A DNA stretch of 64,000 bases, from the NCBI RefSeq assembly GCF_004792515.1, contig NZ_CP038865.1, forward strand, positions 1,076,001 to 1,140,000, given 5' to 3'. Source of the stretch: Vagococcus xieshaowenii (GTDB lineage Bacteria; Bacillota; Bacilli; Lactobacillales; Vagococcaceae). The position numbers and the translations under genes are program-made. Below the pieces are notes generated by a model. It searched no databases. It saw nothing but the letters and a program-made list of their open reading frames with translations, and was not told the DNA's origin. Shown here piece by piece: positions 71-12,469 of this stretch; within the stretch, counting starts at the first letter, position 1; each line of letters opens with the position of its first letter.

Positions 71-1972
71 TTAATTTAGAAATTCCATTACTTTTTCTTT
101 TGTTGTATTATCTTTAAACCAGATGTATATACCTTTCCTTGCACGAGTCATCAATACTCTATAAGTATTTAAAACTAGTTCCTTAACTTCCACTGGATTC
201 CCAAATTTAGGGATAAACTCATTTATATTATAGTCTTTACCATCTTTTTGAACTATCCAATGCCCCTTTAACCTATCATATTTTTTTAAAATCCCTTCAT
301 ATTGTTGAACTATTTCCCTAATGAATTGAAAATCCTGACTTTTATTCAAATCAACTATCCAATCATTTTTTTGGGGTGACCAAATTAAGTCATTCCAAAA
401 AATATAACCCACATAATCAAAATCAAGTCCCTGTGCTGTATAAATACAGCCGATTCTATCTTTATGATGTATTTCAATTTCTGAATACCATTCAAATTGT
501 TCTTTAATAGGATTCCAAGGTTTAGAAAAGTTTTCTTTAGAGATGATGACATCATTTTTATTAACATTCTTAGTCCATTCCCAACAAAATGGAGCAAACC
601 ACTGAGCTTTTTCATAATTAATTATATGATGTTCTAACATCATATCAATATCATTCAGACTATTTAAAACTCTTATGTCATAACCACTAATGTCTTCATA
701 TTCATTAGCTACAGGATTCAAATTGAATAAATCATTTATCCTATCCACATAACTACTTTGATACAAAGACCTCTTTTGTATAGACAGGTATTCTTGGTGC
801 AATCTAATGTCCATTTGACTGCTCTGAACATACTCATAAAAATTGTCTATCAGCCCTTCTTCATTAATTCTTACTCGTTGTCTGTCATCTTGAAGAACAA
901 TAACAAATTTCACATTATTCTTAATATATAAATTATCTAAAACTTGATTTAAATTTTGTAATCTATGAGCTTCATCTATAATTACTAAATCAAATTGACC
1001 ACTTAAGTTATTGACATAAGGCATATATGTTTCAGTATGGCCACTAATGATAGCATTTAATATACGACTGGTTACCGCAAAAGCAACTGATTTTGACTTA
1101 GTTAAGTCAATATAGCGCTTAAGCAAATACAAACCTAAGTAGGTTTTTCCAGTTCCACAATCACCACTTATTATTATCAAGTGTTTCTGATTTTTTTCTC
1201 TAAAAATGTCAGAAACTCTAACAGAAACGTCTCTTTGCTCATCCAAGAGAGGGCTAATTTCATCTGAATTTAATGCTTTTACCAAATTTTCATACCCTTG
1301 TTTTTCCATTGAATACTGACCACTAATGATTAAGTTTGTAATAGTCGTAGAATCACTATTTTCAAACGTATCAGCTAACAATTTTACTAACTGGTTGTCT
1401 TCACCCTTAACAAAACAATTGCTCTTTTTCGAGTTATAGATACTATACTGATTAGCAAATAACTCCTCTTTATTTTGGAAATTATGAAGATACTGTACCT
1501 CCATAATTTCTACCTGATTGTTTCCTAAATTTGAATGATTACACTTCAAATGATTTCTATAGGTATGTGTTTGAGCGATTGGATGACTCCTAACACTTAT
1601 TTCTTCATCAACATTAGAAAGCTTCACAGATGTGCTAGAATCCTTATAATTTGTATCGATTGATTGCCACTGCTTTAGTTCAATTATCATCGCAGTTGGT
1701 CGATTAGTTTCTTTATGTAACCCAACTAATAACGCATCAATCCTTGAATTTAGAGGTGTTTCATATTCTAATATTAAATCCAAATTTGTTAATCCTGCTT
1801 CATTAATTAGATTAATCAGAATAGGCAATGAATTTTTCCATGATAATATTTCATTATCATTAAATTCAATAATAGTCTCTTCAAATGATTTAAATTTCAT
1901 CAACATCTTTTCAGCCAATTCTTCCTTAGACAAATTTATTAAGCTAGAAACTTTATCATAAAAATACAACAT
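71..1972 (-). CDS. DUF2075-type DNA/RNA helicase with nuclease-like N-terminus
   Basis: This 633-residue protein combines a possible PD-(D/E)XK-like nuclease region with a P-loop helicase core of the DUF2075 kind. Residues about 75-102 read RIDALLV...MIIELKQW, with Asp, Glu and Lys spaced as in that nuclease fold. Walker A (GDCGTGKT) is at about 270-277 and a DEAH box at about 333-336. The C-terminal motifs IYTAQGLDFDYVGY and YRVLMTRARKG resemble UvrD/DUF2075 motifs V and VI. The start at 1972 is preferred over an upstream GTG or ATG because GGTGG lies eight bases before it. Proteins of this family occur in defence islands, and it sits next to an AbiH gene here. The helicase assignment is firm; the nuclease and any defence role are inference. 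Confidence 0.8.
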   Translation of the reverse strand: MLYFYDKVSSLINLSKEELAEKMLMKFKSFEETIIEFNDNEILSWKNSLPILINLINEAGLTNLDLILEYETPLNSRIDALLVGLHKETNRPTAMIIELKQWQSIDTNYKDSSTSVKLSNVDEEISVRSHPIAQTHTYRNHLKCNHSNLGNNQVEIMEVQYLHNFQNKEELFANQYSIYNSKKSNCFVKGEDNQLVKLLADTFENSDSTTITNLIISGQYSMEKQGYENLVKALNSDEISPLLDEQRDVSVRVSDIFREKNQKHLIIISGDCGTGKTYLGLYLLKRYIDLTKSKSVAFAVTSRILNAIISGHTETYMPYVNNLSGQFDLVIIDEAHRLQNLNQVLDNLYIKNNVKFVIVLQDDRQRVRINEEGLIDNFYEYVQSSQMDIRLHQEYLSIQKRSLYQSSYVDRINDLFNLNPVANEYEDISGYDIRVLNSLNDIDMMLEHHIINYEKAQWFAPFCWEWTKNVNKNDVIISKENFSKPWNPIKEQFEWYSEIEIHHKDRIGCIYTAQGLDFDYVGYIFWNDLIWSPQKNDWIVDLNKSQDFQFIREIVQQYEGILKKYDRLKGHWIVQKDGKDYNINEFIPKFGNPVEVKELVLNTYRVLMTRARKGIYIWFKDNTTKEKVMEFLN

Positions 1973-2045
1973 AATTATTACCACCCACATCTAATATAGT
2001 AATAATTGTATCATAATAGCTACAAAAAATCGTATAATTATAAAA

Positions 2046-2076
2046 CAAAAAACTCCTGAAATATCAGGAGTTTTTT
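2046..2076 (-). terminator. rho-independent terminator after the abiH-like gene
   Basis: Arms ACTCCTGA and TCAGGAGT around an AATA loop are flanked by A and T runs, so the hairpin can work in both directions. It lies between the AbiH gene and the helicase gene, which suggests that these are separate transcription units. Confidence 0.8.
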
Positions 2077-2132
2077 ATCAACATTCTTAAAAATAGAATA
2101 TTATGTATTACTGACTAGGATTCATTTTGTAG

Positions 2133-3239
2133 TTAATAATATACTATTTGAGCCTTTATTTCTGATACATTATTCAAAAAATTTATTTTATTTGAATAAT
2201 CCTCCCCACTGTAAACAAATAGTTTAATCTTTTCTAAATTATCTAATTCGTTGATAATATCTACAATCAGTTCTTCATCGGCCTCTAAACTATGACCTAA
2301 AATAATCAACTCTTTAACATTAGTAAAGTCAATATTCATACTAATTGGTGCTGGACTGAAATTGTTTATTTCACCATAATCATTAATAATTGGTGATATT
2401 TGTTGAAGTCTTTCATTCCTTAATTGTTCATCCAACAAGAGGGGATAAATAATGGGGTCTACTTTTCTAAATCTATTAAATGTAGACCATCCTTTTTCTT
2501 TATACCATTCATTAATATAATCAAAAAATTCTTTATTAAGTGCTGGTGAATAATCAAATACATATCCTCCTCTACCACTAAACATTCGTCTTACATGAGA
2601 TTTAAATTCACTCATCTCTTTTTCTAAAGCTTTTTTACTTAGTCCAAGGCTAATAAGATATCGTTTAAAATTTAGTTGTTCTCTTAATTTCTTTTTATCA
2701 AAAACCGTCGCTTCTGACATGATACCCGTTTGTTCGACACGTTGCTTATATCCTAGTACTATTTCAGATTCCATTAATGAACCATGAACATAATAAATGC
2801 AGCTTTTTACATACTTTTCAACTGTACCTGTATAATTAAAATTTATTATATTTGTATCAAAATCTAGGATTTTTTTTACACTACTTTTTAACTCTATAGT
2901 TTTATAGTCTTCTCCCAAAAGATATTCCATCAATAAGGTATTCATTTTAAAAAATATCGTGTTTATTTCTTCTATTTTTTTTAGAAGAACTTCTTCGGTA
3001 AATTCATCGTCCCTTTTTATAATAGTATTAAAATATTGTTCTTGCCATTTTGCTGTAATTTTATCTATTGCATCTTCAAATGAATACCACGTTTTTGGAT
3101 GAACTTCACTTTCAATAAGTATTTTTTCCCATTCTTTCTTAATATCTATCGGTAACGTATTTGCAAAATCTAAATATCCTGTTTTAAGCCCGTGAGATAT
3201 ATCAAATCCATTTCCAATTATTGCTAATTTATTTTTCAT
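2133..3239 (-). CDS. AbiH-family abortive infection protein
   Basis: A 368-residue protein with the family landmarks in order: N-terminal KLAIIGNGFDISHGLKTGY, central IINFNYTGTVEKY, then YVHGS and IVLGY, and near the C-terminus IILGHSLEADEE. AbiH was first described as a lactococcal plasmid-borne phage-resistance factor that acts by abortive infection; its biochemistry is not settled. The GNGFD opening looks like a nucleotide-binding turn. The gene follows the DUF3800-like gene by 48 bases on the same strand with only a weak AAGAAAG ribosome site, so the two probably form an operon that ends at the hairpin at 2046-2076. Confidence 0.85.
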   Translation of the reverse strand: MKNKLAIIGNGFDISHGLKTGYLDFANTLPIDIKKEWEKILIESEVHPKTWYSFEDAIDKITAKWQEQYFNTIIKRDDEFTEEVLLKKIEEINTIFFKMNTLLMEYLLGEDYKTIELKSSVKKILDFDTNIINFNYTGTVEKYVKSCIYYVHGSLMESEIVLGYKQRVEQTGIMSEATVFDKKKLREQLNFKRYLISLGLSKKALEKEMSEFKSHVRRMFSGRGGYVFDYSPALNKEFFDYINEWYKEKGWSTFNRFRKVDPIIYPLLLDEQLRNERLQQISPIINDYGEINNFSPAPISMNIDFTNVKELIILGHSLEADEELIVDIINELDNLEKIKLFVYSGEDYSNKINFLNNVSEIKAQIVYY

Positions 3240-3287
3240 TAGATTCCAGTTCTTTCTTTAAAATAAGAATTTTATTTGGTTTTAGTC

Positions 3288-4520
3288 TTATCTTTGATGC
3301 ATTTGTTCCTCTCTTTGTAAACAAAACAAATTAAACTGTTCTCTATGTTCCTCATAACTATAGCTTTGATATTCATCAAAATTGTCATATGTTAAAAAAT
3401 AATATAGTAAAGATATAAACACACCAAAATGCCCCCAATAAAGACCTGTTTGTACAGTCCAGAAAATATCTTTTCTATCATAAAATACGTTAGCTATTTT
3501 AACGTATAAATCAAATTGCTCATTAGTTAAATTAAACCATTCTGTGTTTAAAATTCTTCTCTCAGCTAGTTTAGCTTTAGTATCAGGATTATCCCAATCT
3601 TCAAGATACTCATCTTCTATAGCTTTTACGAATCTACCTACAAAATTGCTAAAAATATCCGCTATTCTTACACCTGAACAATCTTTAGATTTTACACTTT
3701 TTACACTTTTAAAATTGAAAAACCGTTTTGCAACTGCTTCAGTTCTCTCTTCTCTATCTATAATTAAATTAACGGATTTAATTTTTATTTTCTTCTCCTC
3801 AAGTAAAAAGACCAGTCCATTTAAAGAGTGACTGTAGTCCCACTCATATTTTTCTTTTGATTTTAAATTTAATAAACTATTTGACAAAATAGTCCTTATT
3901 TCTCGAATGGCCCTCTCCTCTTTTTCTTTTCGTTTTATTCCTGAAATATTATTCTCAACATCATCTAATAGATTCATAATACAATTATAAATATCAGATA
4001 TTGTCGAATCTGAATCGAACAATACTGATATTAACTCTTCATTTCTATAATGATTTAAAAATTTACTTAATGAATATCTAAAAGCTTGCTCATCAGCTAT
4101 CAAAGAAATACTACTATTTGAAAAAATAGAATTGATTACATGCTCTAATTTATTCATTACTGAAATTTGAAAAATCCAATTATTATCAATCAAATCAAAA
4201 AAATTATTATATATTTCTAGCGTTTTTTCATTAAATGATGATACTCCGTTTTTAAAATTAGGTTTATTTATTGTTGTTCCTTTAAACATAGCAGAACTAT
4301 CAATTCCTAGAATTTCTTTTGCTTGATTTTCAAATTCATTAAAAAGCCTAATATATTTTTCATGTTGATGCTCTAAAAAAATAATTTTAGCAGTGAAAAA
4401 ATTATCTCCATTCTCTTTTTGTTCAATATTCATTTGTCCTTTTTCTTTAGATTCGGTTATTTTTCTATCATGAAATGCTTCATCATAAAAACAGATATAA
4501 AATTTTTTCTTTTTGGCCAC
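3288..4520 (-). CDS. DUF3800-like protein (RNase H-fold candidate)
   Basis: A 410-residue protein opening with FYICFYDEAFHD, like the IYIDESG start of DUF3800 proteins. In its second half it carries IIDRE and then SKDCSGVRIADIFSNFVG, which matches the family's C-terminal Asp plus (Q/R)xADxx motif. Acidic residues at those places are thought to be a metal-dependent nuclease site, though few family members have been studied. The central region, about residues 100-240, is charged and helical and has no recognisable domain. The start is a GTG at 4520-4518 behind GGAGAGAG; this ribosome site lies inside the decayed resolvase reading frame. It pairs with the AbiH gene downstream. The family call is moderate because motif spacing is unusual and the C-terminus is extended. 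Confidence 0.6.
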   Translation of the reverse strand: MAKKKKFYICFYDEAFHDRKITESKEKGQMNIEQKENGDNFFTAKIIFLEHQHEKYIRLFNEFENQAKEILGIDSSAMFKGTTINKPNFKNGVSSFNEKTLEIYNNFFDLIDNNWIFQISVMNKLEHVINSIFSNSSISLIADEQAFRYSLSKFLNHYRNEELISVLFDSDSTISDIYNCIMNLLDDVENNISGIKRKEKEERAIREIRTILSNSLLNLKSKEKYEWDYSHSLNGLVFLLEEKKIKIKSVNLIIDREERTEAVAKRFFNFKSVKSVKSKDCSGVRIADIFSNFVGRFVKAIEDEYLEDWDNPDTKAKLAERRILNTEWFNLTNEQFDLYVKIANVFYDRKDIFWTVQTGLYWGHFGVFISLLYYFLTYDNFDEYQSYSYEEHREQFNLFCLQREEQMHQR

Positions 4521-4939
4521 TTTAATCTCTCTCCTTTTTCATCTCTAATTCTATAAATCATATTTCTCGCCACATCCAACTCTTTAGAAATCTGTGTTAT
4601 AGGAGCATCTTTCTCCAATATCTCAACAATCTTTTCATACGTTACACGTTTTTGTTTATCTGTTGAATCAGCACTATAAGCCAAAGGACGACCTTTGTAT
4701 TTACCTTTTTATTTCGCCAACTCAATACCTTGCCTTTCACATATCTGTTTACGCTCATTCTCAGCTGTATACTTAAACAATTCAATGATTAAGTTATTTA
4801 GTAACCTTCTCAAGTTATCGTCCTGTATTCCGTTTAGAGATGGCAAATTAAGGATTTCAAGAGTTGCACCTTTATCTTGTACCTGATTCATAATACTAGT
4901 AATTTCTTTATTATTTCGTCCTAATAATATGTGTATAAA
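4457..4939 (-). pseudogene. decayed serine resolvase (C-terminal two thirds)
   Basis: The frame reads LLGRNNKEITSIM, then ATLEILNLPSL, NLRRLLNNLIIELFKYTAENERKQI and RQGIELAK, followed by an in-frame TAA at 4711-4709. It then resumes in the same frame with KGKYKGRPLAYSADS and a helix-turn-helix region (ITQISKELDVARNMIYRIRDEK). Plasmid and transposon resolvases normally have a Glu or Lys codon where the TAA stands. The N-terminal catalytic-serine region is missing; the frame upstream of 4939 shows no homology that I recognise. The 3' end runs about 64 bases into the DUF3800-like gene. This looks like a mobile-element remnant into which, or against which, the DUF3800/AbiH pair was joined. Confidence 0.8.
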
Positions 4940-4967
4940 CCAATAATTTAATAGACATTTATTTCAG

Positions 4968-6902
4968 TTACTCATCAATAGCTCTTACTTTTTTTATGTA
5001 CTTTCTTTTTTGCGTTCCATGCAATTCTATAACCATCTCTAAACCATACTCATTTAGTTTTTTATCAAAATACTCTTTGTTATTATCATATTGATTATTA
5101 ATAAAACTTTGAATAGACTTACCTTTCCCTATTCGTCCAATTGATAACTTAGTTTCCACTATCTCATTATCAAAAAACTTTCTGATTTCTTTGCATTTTT
5201 CTTTTATTTTCATTTGCATTTTAATTGTTGTAGAATTGGCTTTGGGTTGTATAACTTTAAACTTTGTTATTTCAAACGCATTTTGTATTAAATCTACAAG
5301 TATAGTAGCAATAAATATATATATTTTTTCTTCAGATTGTAAATTTCTCAAATCTGTTCGCATAATAATTTGTATTAATTCGTTTAGTATCTCCCTCATA
5401 TATATTTTTTGTAGCTTTTCATCTACAAACCAACCTGAATTTTCTAAGTTTTCTTGATTTATTAGCTCTCTAAGCCTATAGTCTAAACGTTTACTGTAGA
5501 GCACACTTGCAAATGCCCGATAATAATTGGGGGGCTTTATCGGTAGTGAAGTTATATATATGGATGTTAAACTGTTCAATTCATTACTTCCTCTAGTATT
5601 AAATATATGTTTAGACACATATTCAATATCATTGTAGTTTTGATTCCTGTCAATCTTAATCTTAAATGCTTCAGCATCAGATTTTTTTGGAATTAATGGT
5701 ACGTCTCTTAACTTAAAGTCGTTTTTCACTTCAGAAATATCGTGAAGAATTTGTTTTGAATATAGTATTTTCTTTGTATCACGACGAGAAGCTGATGAAT
5801 TAATATTTCGTATTATTATATCAGCTCTCTTATAGTTAATAGAGTCTGCCACTTGCTTTATAACAAAGCCTAGCTGGCGGTATTTTTCCGTGAAGTAACT
5901 AGCCGTTCCATCCATAATTAATATATCACTACCTAATATATTAAAATCTATTTTATTGGCTACTATTATTGTTTTGGGGTTACTATCTTGTTCTGGTGTA
6001 AAAAAACCTACATTATCATGATAGTATAAAGCCTTAAAACACATAAATCTTTTTATAAACTCTCTTTCAAAAATCTCTCCACTTTCTATTTTCTTTTCAA
6101 TTTTTTCAAAGAACGTATTGAATGATTCCCTATCTTCTTTCGTTTGATGGTTAATTAAAGCTTTGGTTTCGCAACTGGTATTCGCCAATTGTTCTTGAAT
6201 AATCAACATCTGTATCATACATCTAATAAATGTTTGATAAAGAATTATATTAGACGTATAGCCTTCCTTATAGGGCATTTTTATTTGATAGGACGTTTCC
6301 TTAGAGTAATCATATGCTTTCTTAATTTTTTGTTCATCAATCCACGAATTATCATCAACTTTAAATTCTTCATAGTAAAATAAATTGGGTTCTTCATCTA
6401 TGATTATTTTTCTTTTTTCTATCGAATCTAATTCAAGTAATTTTTTTATTTCTAAATCTGACTTTTTTAATCCAAACTGTTTATTTAGAATCAAATTTTC
6501 TAATCTTGCATGTGTAATAGTAATAATTTGTTGATATTTACTTGTTGAGTTCATATTTTGATTCTCTTGGTTTACGTTCAATAGCTTTCTTTTTACTACT
6601 TTTTTTGAGTTCAAATTTAATAAAAATTCTTCCATCAAATATTGTTGTTCAATTTCTTTAAACACTAGTAGTAAAGATTCTTTGGTATTATTTATCAAAT
6701 AGTTTACAAAGCAATATAACGCGGTTGTTTTCCCATGACCTGGTTTTGCATCTAGAACTATATTATTATTATTATTATTATTAATATTAATAAAATCGTA
6801 ATATGATTCTACACATTGTTCAAACGAATCTAAATTCAACTTAATATTCAGCTCTTCTAAATACCCTATACATTCTTTTACTACCTTCTTTTTTTCGTCC
6901 AT
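4968..6902 (-). CDS. P-loop ATPase / helicase-like protein of unknown function
   Basis: A 644-residue protein that I do not recognise as a named family. Walker A is DAKPGHGKT at about 51-59 and a helicase-like motif II is IIIDEEPNL at about 167-175. Between them, TITHARLENL resembles helicase motif Ia, and ILIMDGTASYF at about 345 resembles a motif III. The second half has no clear motif VI. Seven Asn codons (a 7 x ATT run on the plus strand, 6762-6782) sit just before the Walker A strand. The start at 6902 has a strong AGGAGGTC ribosome site. It stands apart from both neighbours: a resolvase remnant follows it and a structured spacer precedes it. It could be the motor of a defence or plasmid-derived system, but this is inference. 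Confidence 0.6.
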   Translation of the reverse strand: MDEKKKVVKECIGYLEELNIKLNLDSFEQCVESYYDFININNNNNNNIVLDAKPGHGKTTALYCFVNYLINNTKESLLLVFKEIEQQYLMEEFLLNLNSKKVVKRKLLNVNQENQNMNSTSKYQQIITITHARLENLILNKQFGLKKSDLEIKKLLELDSIEKRKIIIDEEPNLFYYEEFKVDDNSWIDEQKIKKAYDYSKETSYQIKMPYKEGYTSNIILYQTFIRCMIQMLIIQEQLANTSCETKALINHQTKEDRESFNTFFEKIEKKIESGEIFEREFIKRFMCFKALYYHDNVGFFTPEQDSNPKTIIVANKIDFNILGSDILIMDGTASYFTEKYRQLGFVIKQVADSINYKRADIIIRNINSSASRRDTKKILYSKQILHDISEVKNDFKLRDVPLIPKKSDAEAFKIKIDRNQNYNDIEYVSKHIFNTRGSNELNSLTSIYITSLPIKPPNYYRAFASVLYSKRLDYRLRELINQENLENSGWFVDEKLQKIYMREILNELIQIIMRTDLRNLQSEEKIYIFIATILVDLIQNAFEITKFKVIQPKANSTTIKMQMKIKEKCKEIRKFFDNEIVETKLSIGRIGKGKSIQSFINNQYDNNKEYFDKKLNEYGLEMVIELHGTQKRKYIKKVRAIDE

Positions 6903-7027
6903 TTAATAAGACCTCCTCTATCCTCATAATTTCTCTATATAATAAATAATATTATTAGGATGTTAATGTTGTAAATATATATACAGTGTTAGTATTTCCC
7001 TAATTTAATTTGAAGATGTTTTTGATT

Positions 7028-7114
7028 GCGGAAAATGATTATGCGCGATTTTTGCGCGTAATCGTTTTCGCGCGGCTCTAAACTTAACGCGCGGTCTTCG
7101 CGTTGAGCTTAGAG
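7028..7114. other. two adjacent long GC-rich hairpins in an AT-rich spacer
   Basis: The first hairpin spans 7028-7073: GCGGAAAATGATTA and TAATCGTTTTCGC form the outer stem, TGCGCGA/TTGCGCG the inner stem, and TTTT the loop, with G-T wobbles and one bulge. The second spans 7076-7114: two 16-base arms, 7076-7091 and 7099-7114, with one mismatch and one wobble around a 7-base loop CGGTCTT. CGCG steps are concentrated here and rare in the surrounding DNA. Neither hairpin is followed by a clean T run, so a plain terminator is unlikely. Possibilities are a structured RNA, a replication or transfer site, or a recombination site. Confidence 0.65.
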
Positions 7115-7176
7115 ACGGAGTCTTTTGGGTTTGTCTTTTCCTTTGATAAATAAGTATTTATAAACACATACTAACA

Positions 7177-8337
7177 TTATCTGAAATAGTCTTCACATAA
7201 CCTCGTTAATTGTTTATTTTCATAGTTATCATTAATTAAAAAGTCTAACATTAACTCTTCTATTTCGTCACTTCGTTCCATGTATGATAAATATTCAAAA
7301 TAGCTTAATCTTAATTCTTTATATAAATAATTCTCTGTCAATATGGAGTATAAATCTATTAATAATTCTTCCTTATATATACATAAAGTTATGATAAACT
7401 GCTCCATATCTTCAAAATAATTATTATCTAATAATACTTCACTTGTTAATCTAGTTAATATTTCTATATCAGTAATATCATATTTTTCTAAAAAACTTTG
7501 CACGTAACAGAACTCATCAATAGAAGGGATTTTATTTATAGTTAAATTATTAAAATTACTATTAAACCCTTTGTACACATTGTTTTCTTTGTATGGTTCA
7601 ATAACAAAACATTCTAGTGGTTGCTTTCTTTCATATGCTATAGTAGCTTTGTGATGCCCATCCAATAGACATCCTAGAAAACCTGAAAAATTAATAACTA
7701 ATCCACGCCCAAGATAAGCTTGTTGCCTATAGTCACCTAAAGTATCCTTTGAATACAGTTCAGATGCTTGAGTTGGTAGCATGTAACTTGTTGATGCATC
7801 TACTGAGATTATTCCATCATAGCCTCCTAGAGCTCTATAGTAACTGTCCGAAGAAGCAGTTAACGGTTTATCAGTAAATTCAGAAAAAACCATATTTTCA
7901 CCAAATGTTAGAAAAATATATCTTAAAGATACAATGTACTTCGCACTTGGTAATAATGATAAAATAGGAACATTAACTTCTACCAATTCATTAAGGCTTA
8001 TACTTTCATTATTCATTGCCTCTCTATAAGACGTCATAATACTTTTTATTTCAACGGTACTAGAAGAATTGAAATGTTTTCTAATCATTCTTTCACATGT
8101 AGGACACCAATAATTTTCATCTGTAGCAGTATAAAGTAAGCTATTTTTGTATGTAAGCAATAAATCAATAAAATAATCCGAGTGTTCTTTACTGCTATTA
8201 AAATAATTATTGACTGATTCAAATTTTAATTGGTTTTTTCCTCTGATAACCTCAATCACAACAGAATCATGTAATTGTAAAATATTAGTCGTATCAAATT
8301 CTATATTCTTTAAAACTTTTACCTTTGTATTAAACAT
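7177..8337 (-). CDS. unknown protein with ParB/sulfiredoxin-like DGHHK motif
   Basis: A 386-residue protein that I cannot assign to a described family. Around residues 210-240 it reads LVINFSGFLGCLLDGHHKATIAY, which resembles the nucleotide-binding DGHHR motif of the ParB/sulfiredoxin-like fold. A CPTC pair at residues 78-81 could bind zinc or be redox-active, although no second CxxC pair is seen. The C-terminal third is rich in acidic residues, Leu and Tyr and looks helical. The start has a good GGAGGTGAG ribosome site, and a TATAAT box lies about 40 bases upstream near 8375. The gene is monocistronic, ending before the hairpin spacer at 7028-7114. The fold guess rests on one motif. Confidence 0.55.
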   Translation of the reverse strand: MFNTKVKVLKNIEFDTTNILQLHDSVVIEVIRGKNQLKFESVNNYFNSSKEHSDYFIDLLLTYKNSLLYTATDENYWCPTCERMIRKHFNSSSTVEIKSIMTSYREAMNNESISLNELVEVNVPILSLLPSAKYIVSLRYIFLTFGENMVFSEFTDKPLTASSDSYYRALGGYDGIISVDASTSYMLPTQASELYSKDTLGDYRQQAYLGRGLVINFSGFLGCLLDGHHKATIAYERKQPLECFVIEPYKENNVYKGFNSNFNNLTINKIPSIDEFCYVQSFLEKYDITDIEILTRLTSEVLLDNNYFEDMEQFIITLCIYKEELLIDLYSILTENYLYKELRLSYFEYLSYMERSDEIEELMLDFLINDNYENKQLTRLCEDYFR

Positions 8338-8414
8338 TTCTCACCTCCACAAAATACATAACTATCTTTATTATACCAAAGACCTACATTGAAATGAAAA
8401 CGATAACCTAAAAA

Positions 8415-8441
8415 AACACGTCATATAATCATTGACGTGTT
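8415..8441 (-). terminator. terminator after the lipoprotein gene
   Basis: Nine-base arms AACACGTCA and TGACGTGTT enclose a nine-base loop and are followed on the minus strand by a run of T. It would stop transcripts coming from the lipoprotein gene that ends at 8609. The 167 bases between that gene and this hairpin hold no frame that I can support. Confidence 0.75.
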
Positions 8442-8608
8442 CTAAATTTGAACCCTACTATTATTATCTAAGATTTTTAGCACTTTATTATCTATAAATA
8501 CGGTTCAAAAGTAATTATACTTTTTATAGCGTATATATACGTAGGTCACTTTTTTAAAATAGTGGGGAGCAACCAGTCCAAAATCAAAGCTTTCACTATC
8601 CTTTTATC

Positions 8609-9082
8609 TTAGTAGATATAGGGACTCATATCCCAAAAAGTTGTAATATACTCCTCGTTATCAAAAATGAAGTAATTACTATACTCTTCATTTTTACTAC
8701 TTATTGTTCTGTACTCCAAAACCTTAAAATTTTCATTTCCTTCAAGTGAAGATACTGTTTCTAATCTGTCCTCTGCAATTTCAATAAATTGTGAGTACCC
8801 CACCTCATTAACAGCATCTCTAGAAATATCTCCTGTTTTTCTTGGTAGTTCTAAATTTTGAATGACACCTTCAATAATCGCCTCCATATCTTTGGTTTCA
8901 GTTATTATTGTTTTAGGATTACCAAGTTCTTTTATTAAATCCTTTGAAGAACCGATGGTATCAGTATCAAATTCAGTCATTTTACTGTAGGGAACAGGTT
9001 CTTTCTGACCTGAAGCTCCGCATCCCACCATCGTAAAAGCCAATATCCCAATAATAATTAACCCACTTATTATTTTTTTCAT
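8609..9082 (-). CDS. small predicted lipoprotein of unknown function
   Basis: A 157-residue protein with a classic lipoprotein signal: MKKIISG, a hydrophobic stretch, then the lipobox MVGC with the modified Cys at about residue 21. The mature part is acidic, begins SGQKEPVPYS and contains no motif that I recognise. Its length and composition resemble the small surface lipoproteins common in mobile islands of lactic bacteria. The start is supported by GGGAGAAAG just upstream. The two-helix membrane protein upstream is on the same strand 87 bases away, so the two may be co-transcribed. Confidence 0.75.
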   Translation of the reverse strand: MKKIISGLIIIGILAFTMVGCGASGQKEPVPYSKMTEFDTDTIGSSKDLIKELGNPKTIITETKDMEAIIEGVIQNLELPRKTGDISRDAVNEVGYSQFIEIAEDRLETVSSLEGNENFKVLEYRTISSKNEEYSNYFIFDNEEYITTFWDMSPYIY

Positions 9083-10024: not shown

Positions 10025-10939
10025 TCACAAAACAGATAACGGAGTGGTAAGTAGTCCTTTCTGAATTATTTCATCCGATGACATCGATTCTAAGTAACGT
10101 TGAGTTATCTTAATATTAGAATGTCCTAGAATTTTAGATAAAGTATAAATATCTTGTCCGTTTTTGATGCTTGTTTTAGCAAACCAATGCCTGCAAGTAT
10201 GTGGACTGCATCGTATAGTATCCCTTATATTAGTATTAACGGTTATCTCTTTAAAAATAAGCTCTATTGTTGCGTTTGTAGAAATGTTATTACCTTTTTT
10301 TGTTAAAAATAAGGTGTCTCCAATATCATTACTTCTAATTTTTTTTATATAACTATCCCTTGCTTTTCGATACTTTAAAATTTCCTTTTGAAGTTGCTTG
10401 CTAGTTGGTATTACACGCCACTTATTTCCTTTTCCACAAACTTTAAGATAGTTATCATATACATGATTAACTTTTATAGACCTTAATTCCGAGCATCTTA
10501 AACCAGTATCTAGCAACATATAGACAATCAGTCTGTTTCTTATACTCAAATAGTCCTTTTTATTAAAGTATGAGAGTAATATTTTTATTTCATCATCATT
10601 AAAAGTCTCAATTACCATTGTTGGCTCTTTCAACAGCTTAATATTAGTTATACAATTTTCTTTAATATATTCTTCCGAAAATAAGTAGTAATAAAATGCT
10701 TTTAGCGCTTTAAGGATAGTATTGATGTAGGTCTCTTTATATCCTTTATCTAGCATTGATAATACAAAACGCTTAAAATGTATTTTCTTAATCTCACTAA
10801 CTTCTTGAAAGTCACAGCTTTGATTCACCCATCTCCAAAATATATTAATATTAATCTCATATGTTTCAATTGTTCTTTTGGATAAATTTCTAATTTGACA
10901 ATCTAGGATAAATTCTTCAAGTAATTCTGTAGACAACAC
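10025..10939 (-). CDS. tyrosine recombinase / integrase (XerC/D type)
   Basis: A 304-residue site-specific recombinase. The N-terminal SAM-like core-binding domain covers about residues 1-100. The catalytic domain has the first Arg in LDTGLRCSELRS, the HxxR motif in SPHTCRHWFAK, the later His in ILGHSNI and the nucleophilic Tyr in ITQRYLE. The start is a GTG at 10939-10937 with AAAGGAGG eight bases upstream; a longer TTG-initiated version would put the ribosome site inside the gene. It reads toward the island and lies beside the eno 3' end, where an integrase of an integrative element would be expected. It could equally be a stand-alone phase-variation recombinase. Confidence 0.88.
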   Translation of the reverse strand: MLSTELLEEFILDCQIRNLSKRTIETYEININIFWRWVNQSCDFQEVSEIKKIHFKRFVLSMLDKGYKETYINTILKALKAFYYYLFSEEYIKENCITNIKLLKEPTMVIETFNDDEIKILLSYFNKKDYLSIRNRLIVYMLLDTGLRCSELRSIKVNHVYDNYLKVCGKGNKWRVIPTSKQLQKEILKYRKARDSYIKKIRSNDIGDTLFLTKKGNNISTNATIELIFKEITVNTNIRDTIRCSPHTCRHWFAKTSIKNGQDIYTLSKILGHSNIKITQRYLESMSSDEIIQKGLLTTPLSVL

Positions 10940-10941
10940 AA

Positions 10942-10991
10942 AAAAGCCCTCCTTTCTAATTGTATTTAACAATTAAAAACAGAGAGCTTTT
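10942..10991 (-). promoter_or_regulatory. hairpin that can hide the integrase ribosome site
   Basis: In the integrase transcript the bases from 10991-10982 (AAAAGCTCTC) can pair over 10 positions with 10951-10942 (GAGGGCTTTT), which contains part of the AAAGGAGG ribosome site. A second short stem, AATTGT/ACAATT, sits in the loop. The hairpin is followed by T residues just before the GTG start, so it could act by blocking translation or by early termination. Confidence 0.5.
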
Positions 10992-11110: not shown

Positions 11111-11125
11111 TAACTTCTTACAAGC

Positions 11126-12469
<1,344 letters not shown>

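Follow-up and report, generated by a model that had tools for sequence, protein, structure and literature searches.

A neighbouring AbiH and DUF3800-like gene pair as probable independent cargo of an eno island in Vagococcus xieshaowenii

AbiH first became known as an abortive infection gene of Lactococcus lactis S94 (Prevots 1996, as cited in PMC12322248). It has been assayed as a stand-alone defence system and is reported to act against Vansinderenvirus in S. thermophilus (PMC12322248). A prediction assigned it to Sir2 already in 2012 (PMC3506569), and in 2025 its mechanism was given as unknown (PMC12322248). DUF3800 proteins have been described as RNase H-fold accessories of some Cas12a2 (V-A2) and VI-F CRISPR loci (PMC10910872, PMC12669027), and our literature search found no paper joining AbiH with DUF3800. 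Here, we analyzed a stretch of 64,000 nucleotides from Vagococcus xieshaowenii (contig NZ_CP038865.1; hereafter “the window”), in which a DUF3800-like gene directly precedes an AbiH gene. An earlier note on this DNA had put forward the idea of a two-gene system. We instead consider it probable that AbiH and the DUF3800-like gene are defence-type genes of independent mobility, brought together in one integrative island where a promoter and a terminator now serve both.

The gene pair and its predicted products

The features of the locus, in window coordinates unless indicated otherwise, are the following:

71..1990, minus strand: SLFN-g3/DUF2075 helicase, in the same island but a separate transcription unit
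2044..2079, minus strand: intrinsic terminator downstream of AbiH, with a 16-pair stem
2076..2135, no strand assigned: 60-bp element at the far cargo end, common to islands in five other family genomes
2133..3239, minus strand: AbiH gene, 368 aa
3240..3287, minus strand: intergenic spacer between the DUF3800-like gene and AbiH, 48 bp
3288..4520, minus strand: DUF3800-like gene, 410 aa, GTG start
4536..4925, minus strand: 3′ remnant of a serine recombinase gene, with one in-frame stop
4968..6902, minus strand: P-loop ATPase/helicase-like protein of the island, with a 41% homologue in the second island of genome G011
10025..10972, minus strand: tyrosine integrase adjoining eno, downstream of it
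11123..11295, no strand assigned: copy of a 173-bp direct repeat, at the eno 3′ end
11126..12424, minus strand: eno
G000:C1:1069374-1069546 (L128:13275-13447), left of the window: second copy of the 173-bp repeat

On the minus strand, the DUF3800-like gene is followed by the 48-bp spacer, AbiH, the terminator, and the helicase. The positions, strand, and spacing agree with the earlier note, as do the terminator after AbiH (16-pair stem at 2079..2044, minus strand) and the DUF2075 helicase beyond it (Pfam PF09848, SLFN group 3/DUF2075; E 2.4e-48). A terminator search of the region returned two terminator-like sites, compared to 0.6 expected from shuffles, and none between the DUF3800-like gene and AbiH; judging by this layout, the two genes are probably co-transcribed. 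In its N-terminal part, the helicase has a D...ELK pattern reminiscent of a PD-(D/E)XK nuclease, and a 75% identical homologue in G011 adjoins a different AbiH cassette. We considered the helicase as a third component and set it aside, because the terminator separates it from the pair and because other genes lie between the G011 homologue and AbiH. Two SLFN-g3 helicases occur in succession at this locus, one at window 71-1990 with the PD-(D/E)XK-like N terminus and one with a GIY-YIG (L128:18290-19900).

The AbiH protein matches PF14253 with E 2.2e-22 (80.8 bits versus a cut-off of 30.9), and the GNGFD, FNYTGT, and GHSLEAD motifs from which the earlier note had recognized it are all present. 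Across 12 aligned AbiH proteins, the GNGFD, NY, HG, and GxS...D motifs are invariant or nearly so, while N135 and H152 are strictly invariant and sit in motifs similar to those in which SIR2 enzymes carry their catalytic Asn and His. With the PF14253 family, the window protein has in common the match over the cut-off and the GNGFD, FNYT, HGS, and GHS..D motifs. It is nevertheless divergent, with 63-85% to relatives in the same bacterial family and, elsewhere, a weak similarity in motif stretches only.

A structure model of AbiH built on the 12 sequences reached moderate confidence (pLDDT 65, pTM 0.62). Its eleven top-ranked Foldseek matches were all SIR2 chains from SIR2-HerA entries (best E 0.003), and the rows listed by VIA-align were SIR2 proteins or SIR2-complex entries throughout, with Z up to 10.9. 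Compared by hhalign with three SIR2 proteins, the AbiH profile, which is thin, gave no significant match (probability 0.8%, E 0.069, 62 columns). A sequence search found no true relative among solved structures, and a single-protein scan of viral contigs found no relatives of this AbiH. With moderate confidence, we predict a SIR2 fold and a SIR2-type NAD enzyme. The predicted core fold and the invariant Asn135 and His152 are common to AbiH and the SIR2 effectors of SIR2-HerA/Nezha, DSR2, and ThsA, whereas the window protein has GNGFD where SIR2 proteins have the GAG(I/V)S loop, lacks a HerA or sensor domain, and contains a long low-confidence insert at about 155-305. AbiH would most likely kill or stall the infected cell, via NAD+ consumption or ADP-ribose modification of a target, and would need no partner to do so.

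For the DUF3800-like protein, the family assignment is less direct. Taken alone, it scored below the DUF3800 cut-off (PF12686; E 0.47, 11.6 bits versus a cut-off of 21), which weakens the name that the earlier note had given it. The name holds all the same, because three of its six aligned relatives (L003, L006, and L007) pass the curated PF12686 cut-off, because the key residues are common to them, and because the predicted fold is RNase H-like; this evidence supports a divergent DUF3800 member. An AlphaFold model from a 27-sequence alignment (pLDDT 80, pTM 0.81) had RNase HII/HIII chains at ranks 1-19 in VIA-align, with Z from 9.4 to 6.5 and the next entry at 5.4. Foldseek against the PDB gave weak matches, with RNase H2 and HII on top and none below E 0.001, and the RNase H reading accordingly draws on the VIA-align rank pattern, the DUF3800 relatives, and the literature. 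Residues D13, E14, D255, S278, G283, R285, and D288 are invariant in 27/27 sequences. The D13-E14 pair lies at the end of strand 1, where RNase HII carries its own DE, and D255 and D288 may be the counterparts of the other two RNase HII aspartates.

Together, these features predict an RNase HII fold whose acidic residues follow the D-E...D...D pattern of a metal site. The earlier note had proposed structure prediction as a way to look for an RNase H-type Asp/Glu site, and the RNase HII/HIII matches and the invariant acidic residues bear that expectation out; of its metal-nuclease partner for AbiH, the predicted fold and Asp/Glu set survive while the dedicated partnership does not. In structure, the DUF3800-like protein comes closest to class II ribonucleases H (166 residues, Z up to 9.4, rmsd 4.5), yet it lacks the GRG ribonucleotide-recognition motif of RNase HII and has a large helical insert at about 124-242. 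No true relative was found among solved structures by sequence search, in viral contigs by single-protein scan, or in phages at E 1e-5. With the DUF3800 of V-A2 and VI-F CRISPR loci, it has in common the conserved Asp/Glu set and a place in a defence locus, but here it has neither a CRISPR effector nor a TPR partner immediately beside it and the neighbour is AbiH. No Rfam match (DUF3800 motifs) at gathering score was found near the gene, and a structured RNA is not reported for all DUF3800 members. The protein would most likely cut invader RNA, RNA/DNA hybrid, or DNA, as an accessory nuclease of whichever defence locus hosts it.

The eno island and its cargo slot

The pair lies inside an integrated island, and the segment ahead of it (4536..4925) is what is left of a disrupted serine recombinase gene, namely its 3′ end; the earlier note had missed both. 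Because the 173-bp eno end, including the last part of the gene, recurs left of the window without a single mismatch, we conclude that a 17.7-kb island occupies the eno 3′ end. The two marks of an integrative island, i.e., an integrase and flanking direct repeats, are both present at eno, and the island would have entered there via the tyrosine integrase. Smaller eno islands occur in five other genomes of the bacterial family, G018, G023, G010, G011, and G004, with flanking eno repeats of 115-135 bp that are 87-99% identical. A plasmid collection contained nothing similar to 71-9082 at the DNA level. Further genes were seen in and around the island: a Septu-like ATPase/HNH pair (PDC-M62A/B, L128:13645-16697), a GIY-YIG helicase, and a MazG-like gene lie within it, and a Cas9 gene with a repeat-rich, CRISPR-array-like stretch lies just outside its far repeat (L128:5900-13087).

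In the window and in relatives, the cargo is framed by the serine-recombinase remnant on one side and the 60-bp element on the other. The remnant is 84-91% identical in island loci of G018, G011, G010, and G004, with only its last part present in G023. The 60-bp element, possibly a recombination or end site, reaches 82-92% identity in the matched part in five other family genomes (L122-L126). The slot between the two holds different genes in different relatives.

Comparison of these slots takes the pair apart. In G018, a genome of the same genus, an AbiH with 84.5% amino acid identity stands at the same site; 31 bp upstream of it, another AbiH takes the place of the DUF3800-like gene, and no DUF3800-like gene was found in that genome. 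In G023, from another genus of the same family, the DUF3800-like gene is present (93.7% amino acid identity), but a 167-aa membrane-type protein comes next where AbiH would be expected, with no AbiH at that place. In G011, the gene before a 63% identical AbiH encodes a 309-aa protein from a different family. Since each of the two genes is found on its own in close relatives, they look like interchangeable cargo.

The DNA alignments place the boundary between the two units in the spacer. Window 2076-3277 matches G018 at 85.8% and window 3255-4638 matches G023 at 94.0%, and these blocks overlap only at 3255-3277, i.e., for 23 bp within the spacer. The block ends point to the spacer 3240..3287 as the junction of two cargo units, and the present neighbourhood of AbiH and the DUF3800-like gene would then stem from cassette joining there. 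Between the window and G023, dS is 0.11 for the DUF3800-like gene versus 0.56 for eno in the same two genomes, which argues that the DUF3800-like gene moved recently on its own. Both genes look selected, given their low dN/dS (0.26 for the DUF3800-like gene, 0.24 for AbiH). Cargo exchange at one insertion site can thus yield a pair that resembles a new defence operon. It also offers a natural contrast for comparison, with AbiH alone, the DUF3800-like gene alone, and both together. The reading as cargo has its limits in the moderate AbiH model and the nonsignificant AbiH-SIR2 hhalign result, with protein activities that are predicted and an expression deduced from sequence.

Tandem pairs of divergent AbiH genes on the same strand were seen at L129:8417-11093 and L106:2992-5247, at distances of 31 and about 97 bp, and are perhaps a paired AbiH arrangement of their own.

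Co-occurrence of AbiH and DUF3800

Joint occurrence across genomes had been set beforehand as a test of the proposed two-gene system. In a phylum sample of 398 genomes, AbiH occurred in 15 and the DUF3800-like family in 3; in a class sample of 398 genomes, the counts were 16 and 4. In both samples, the window's genome was the only one with both. Leaving that genome out of the class sample, ~0.1 joint occurrences were expected and 0 seen, in a sample too small to speak against a weak link. Among the other AbiH-positive genomes, DUF3800 adjoined AbiH in 0/28, while 4/28 had some DUF3800 gene, none of them near AbiH. Plasmid AbiH neighbourhoods contained DUF3800 in 0/9 cases. A single independent pair was found on Enterococcus hirae plasmid pHDC14-2.74K (NZ_CP042291.1), where a DUF3800 protein is encoded 110-122 bp before AbiH in the same order. 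This pair is highly divergent, with the DUF3800 protein at 24% to that of the window, and it could mean that AbiH and DUF3800 cooperate, which counts against a reading as mere cargo.

These data leave little room for a dedicated AbiH-DUF3800 system. The 48-bp spacing, the one terminator after AbiH, and the same gene order in E. hirae favour it, but close relatives have AbiH without the DUF3800-like gene and vice versa, the samples contain no further joint occurrence, and all nine plasmid AbiH neighbourhoods are without DUF3800. The earlier note had named co-occurrence no higher than chance, or an AbiH protecting without such a partner, as grounds to abandon its proposal; by that measure the proposal falls, because the genes dissociate (in G018, G023, and G011), do not co-occur beyond the window's genome in the phylum and class samples, and AbiH is published as a system alone. 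We regard a dedicated system as highly improbable and an obligate one as unlikely, while the DUF3800-like protein may facultatively help AbiH.

Related DUF3800 genes in other defence loci

A scan of the genome collection with the EHSRKIN sub-clade of DUF3800 returned 40 loci, and the viral scan 2. The query was limited to EHSRKIN because a mixed alignment of seven proteins offered no sufficiently conserved stretch, and the result is hardly informative on the sub-clade of the window protein itself (F-DEAFHDRK). Many of the EHSRKIN genes (L028-L069) lie in defence loci, chiefly between the type I restriction-modification (RM) subunits HsdS and HsdR, and others neighbour OLD plus UvrD, JetA/Wadjet, SIR2 plus HerA, AbiEii, or DUF4238, in many cases on the same strand at a distance of tens of bases. 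AbiH adjoined none of the DUF3800 genes among the scan loci. After clustering at 80% identity (n = 20), type I RM genes were found in 11/20 clusters and a recognised defence gene in 15/20, on the same strand and within about 6 kb; since the reference defence genes came from the same loci, the latter count is descriptive and makes no comparison with a background. Clade members without a recognised defence partner were found in G023, on S. aureus and E. faecalis plasmids, and at L028, L032, and L068. As the related clade sits in so many other defence loci, it resembles a roving defence accessory, in line with the CRISPR reports.

This distribution bears on an alternative, namely a facultative plug-in: as a general accessory with an RNase H fold, the DUF3800-like protein would strengthen whichever defence system lies close by, and AbiH would be one of these. 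It could, for instance, break down phage nucleic acid while AbiH brings NAD+ down. The varied defence neighbours of the related clade, the independent pair in E. hirae, and the CRISPR precedent (PMC10910872, PMC12669027) are all consistent with such a plug-in. Plain cargo clustering, however, would equally place such genes in defence loci, several clade members have no recognised partner, and the 15/20 count is descriptive, so that we judge this explanation of the pair rather improbable. As a statement on the lineage, we consider it conceivable but rather unlikely that DUF3800 proteins with an RNase HII fold serve as a general plug-in accessory of type I restriction, Gabija-like, Wadjet, SIR2-HerA, AbiE, and AbiH systems, and that AbiH can recruit them. 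If true, this would extend the role reported for CRISPR to unrelated anti-phage systems.

In a further alternative, the DUF3800-like protein would have its role in recombination or replication of the island, to the benefit of the mobile element and not of defence. The gene does travel with the serine-recombinase remnant, and some relatives adjoin recombinases, topoisomerase plus ArdA, or a TraG-like gene. But relatives also lie between HsdS and HsdR in chromosomal type I RM loci without element genes, and CRISPR loci use DUF3800 as an accessory (PMC10910872, PMC12669027); we accordingly give a role in element upkeep very little credence. Overall, the DUF3800 RNase H-fold lineage recurs in many defence loci, of which the literature that we searched reports only the CRISPR ones.
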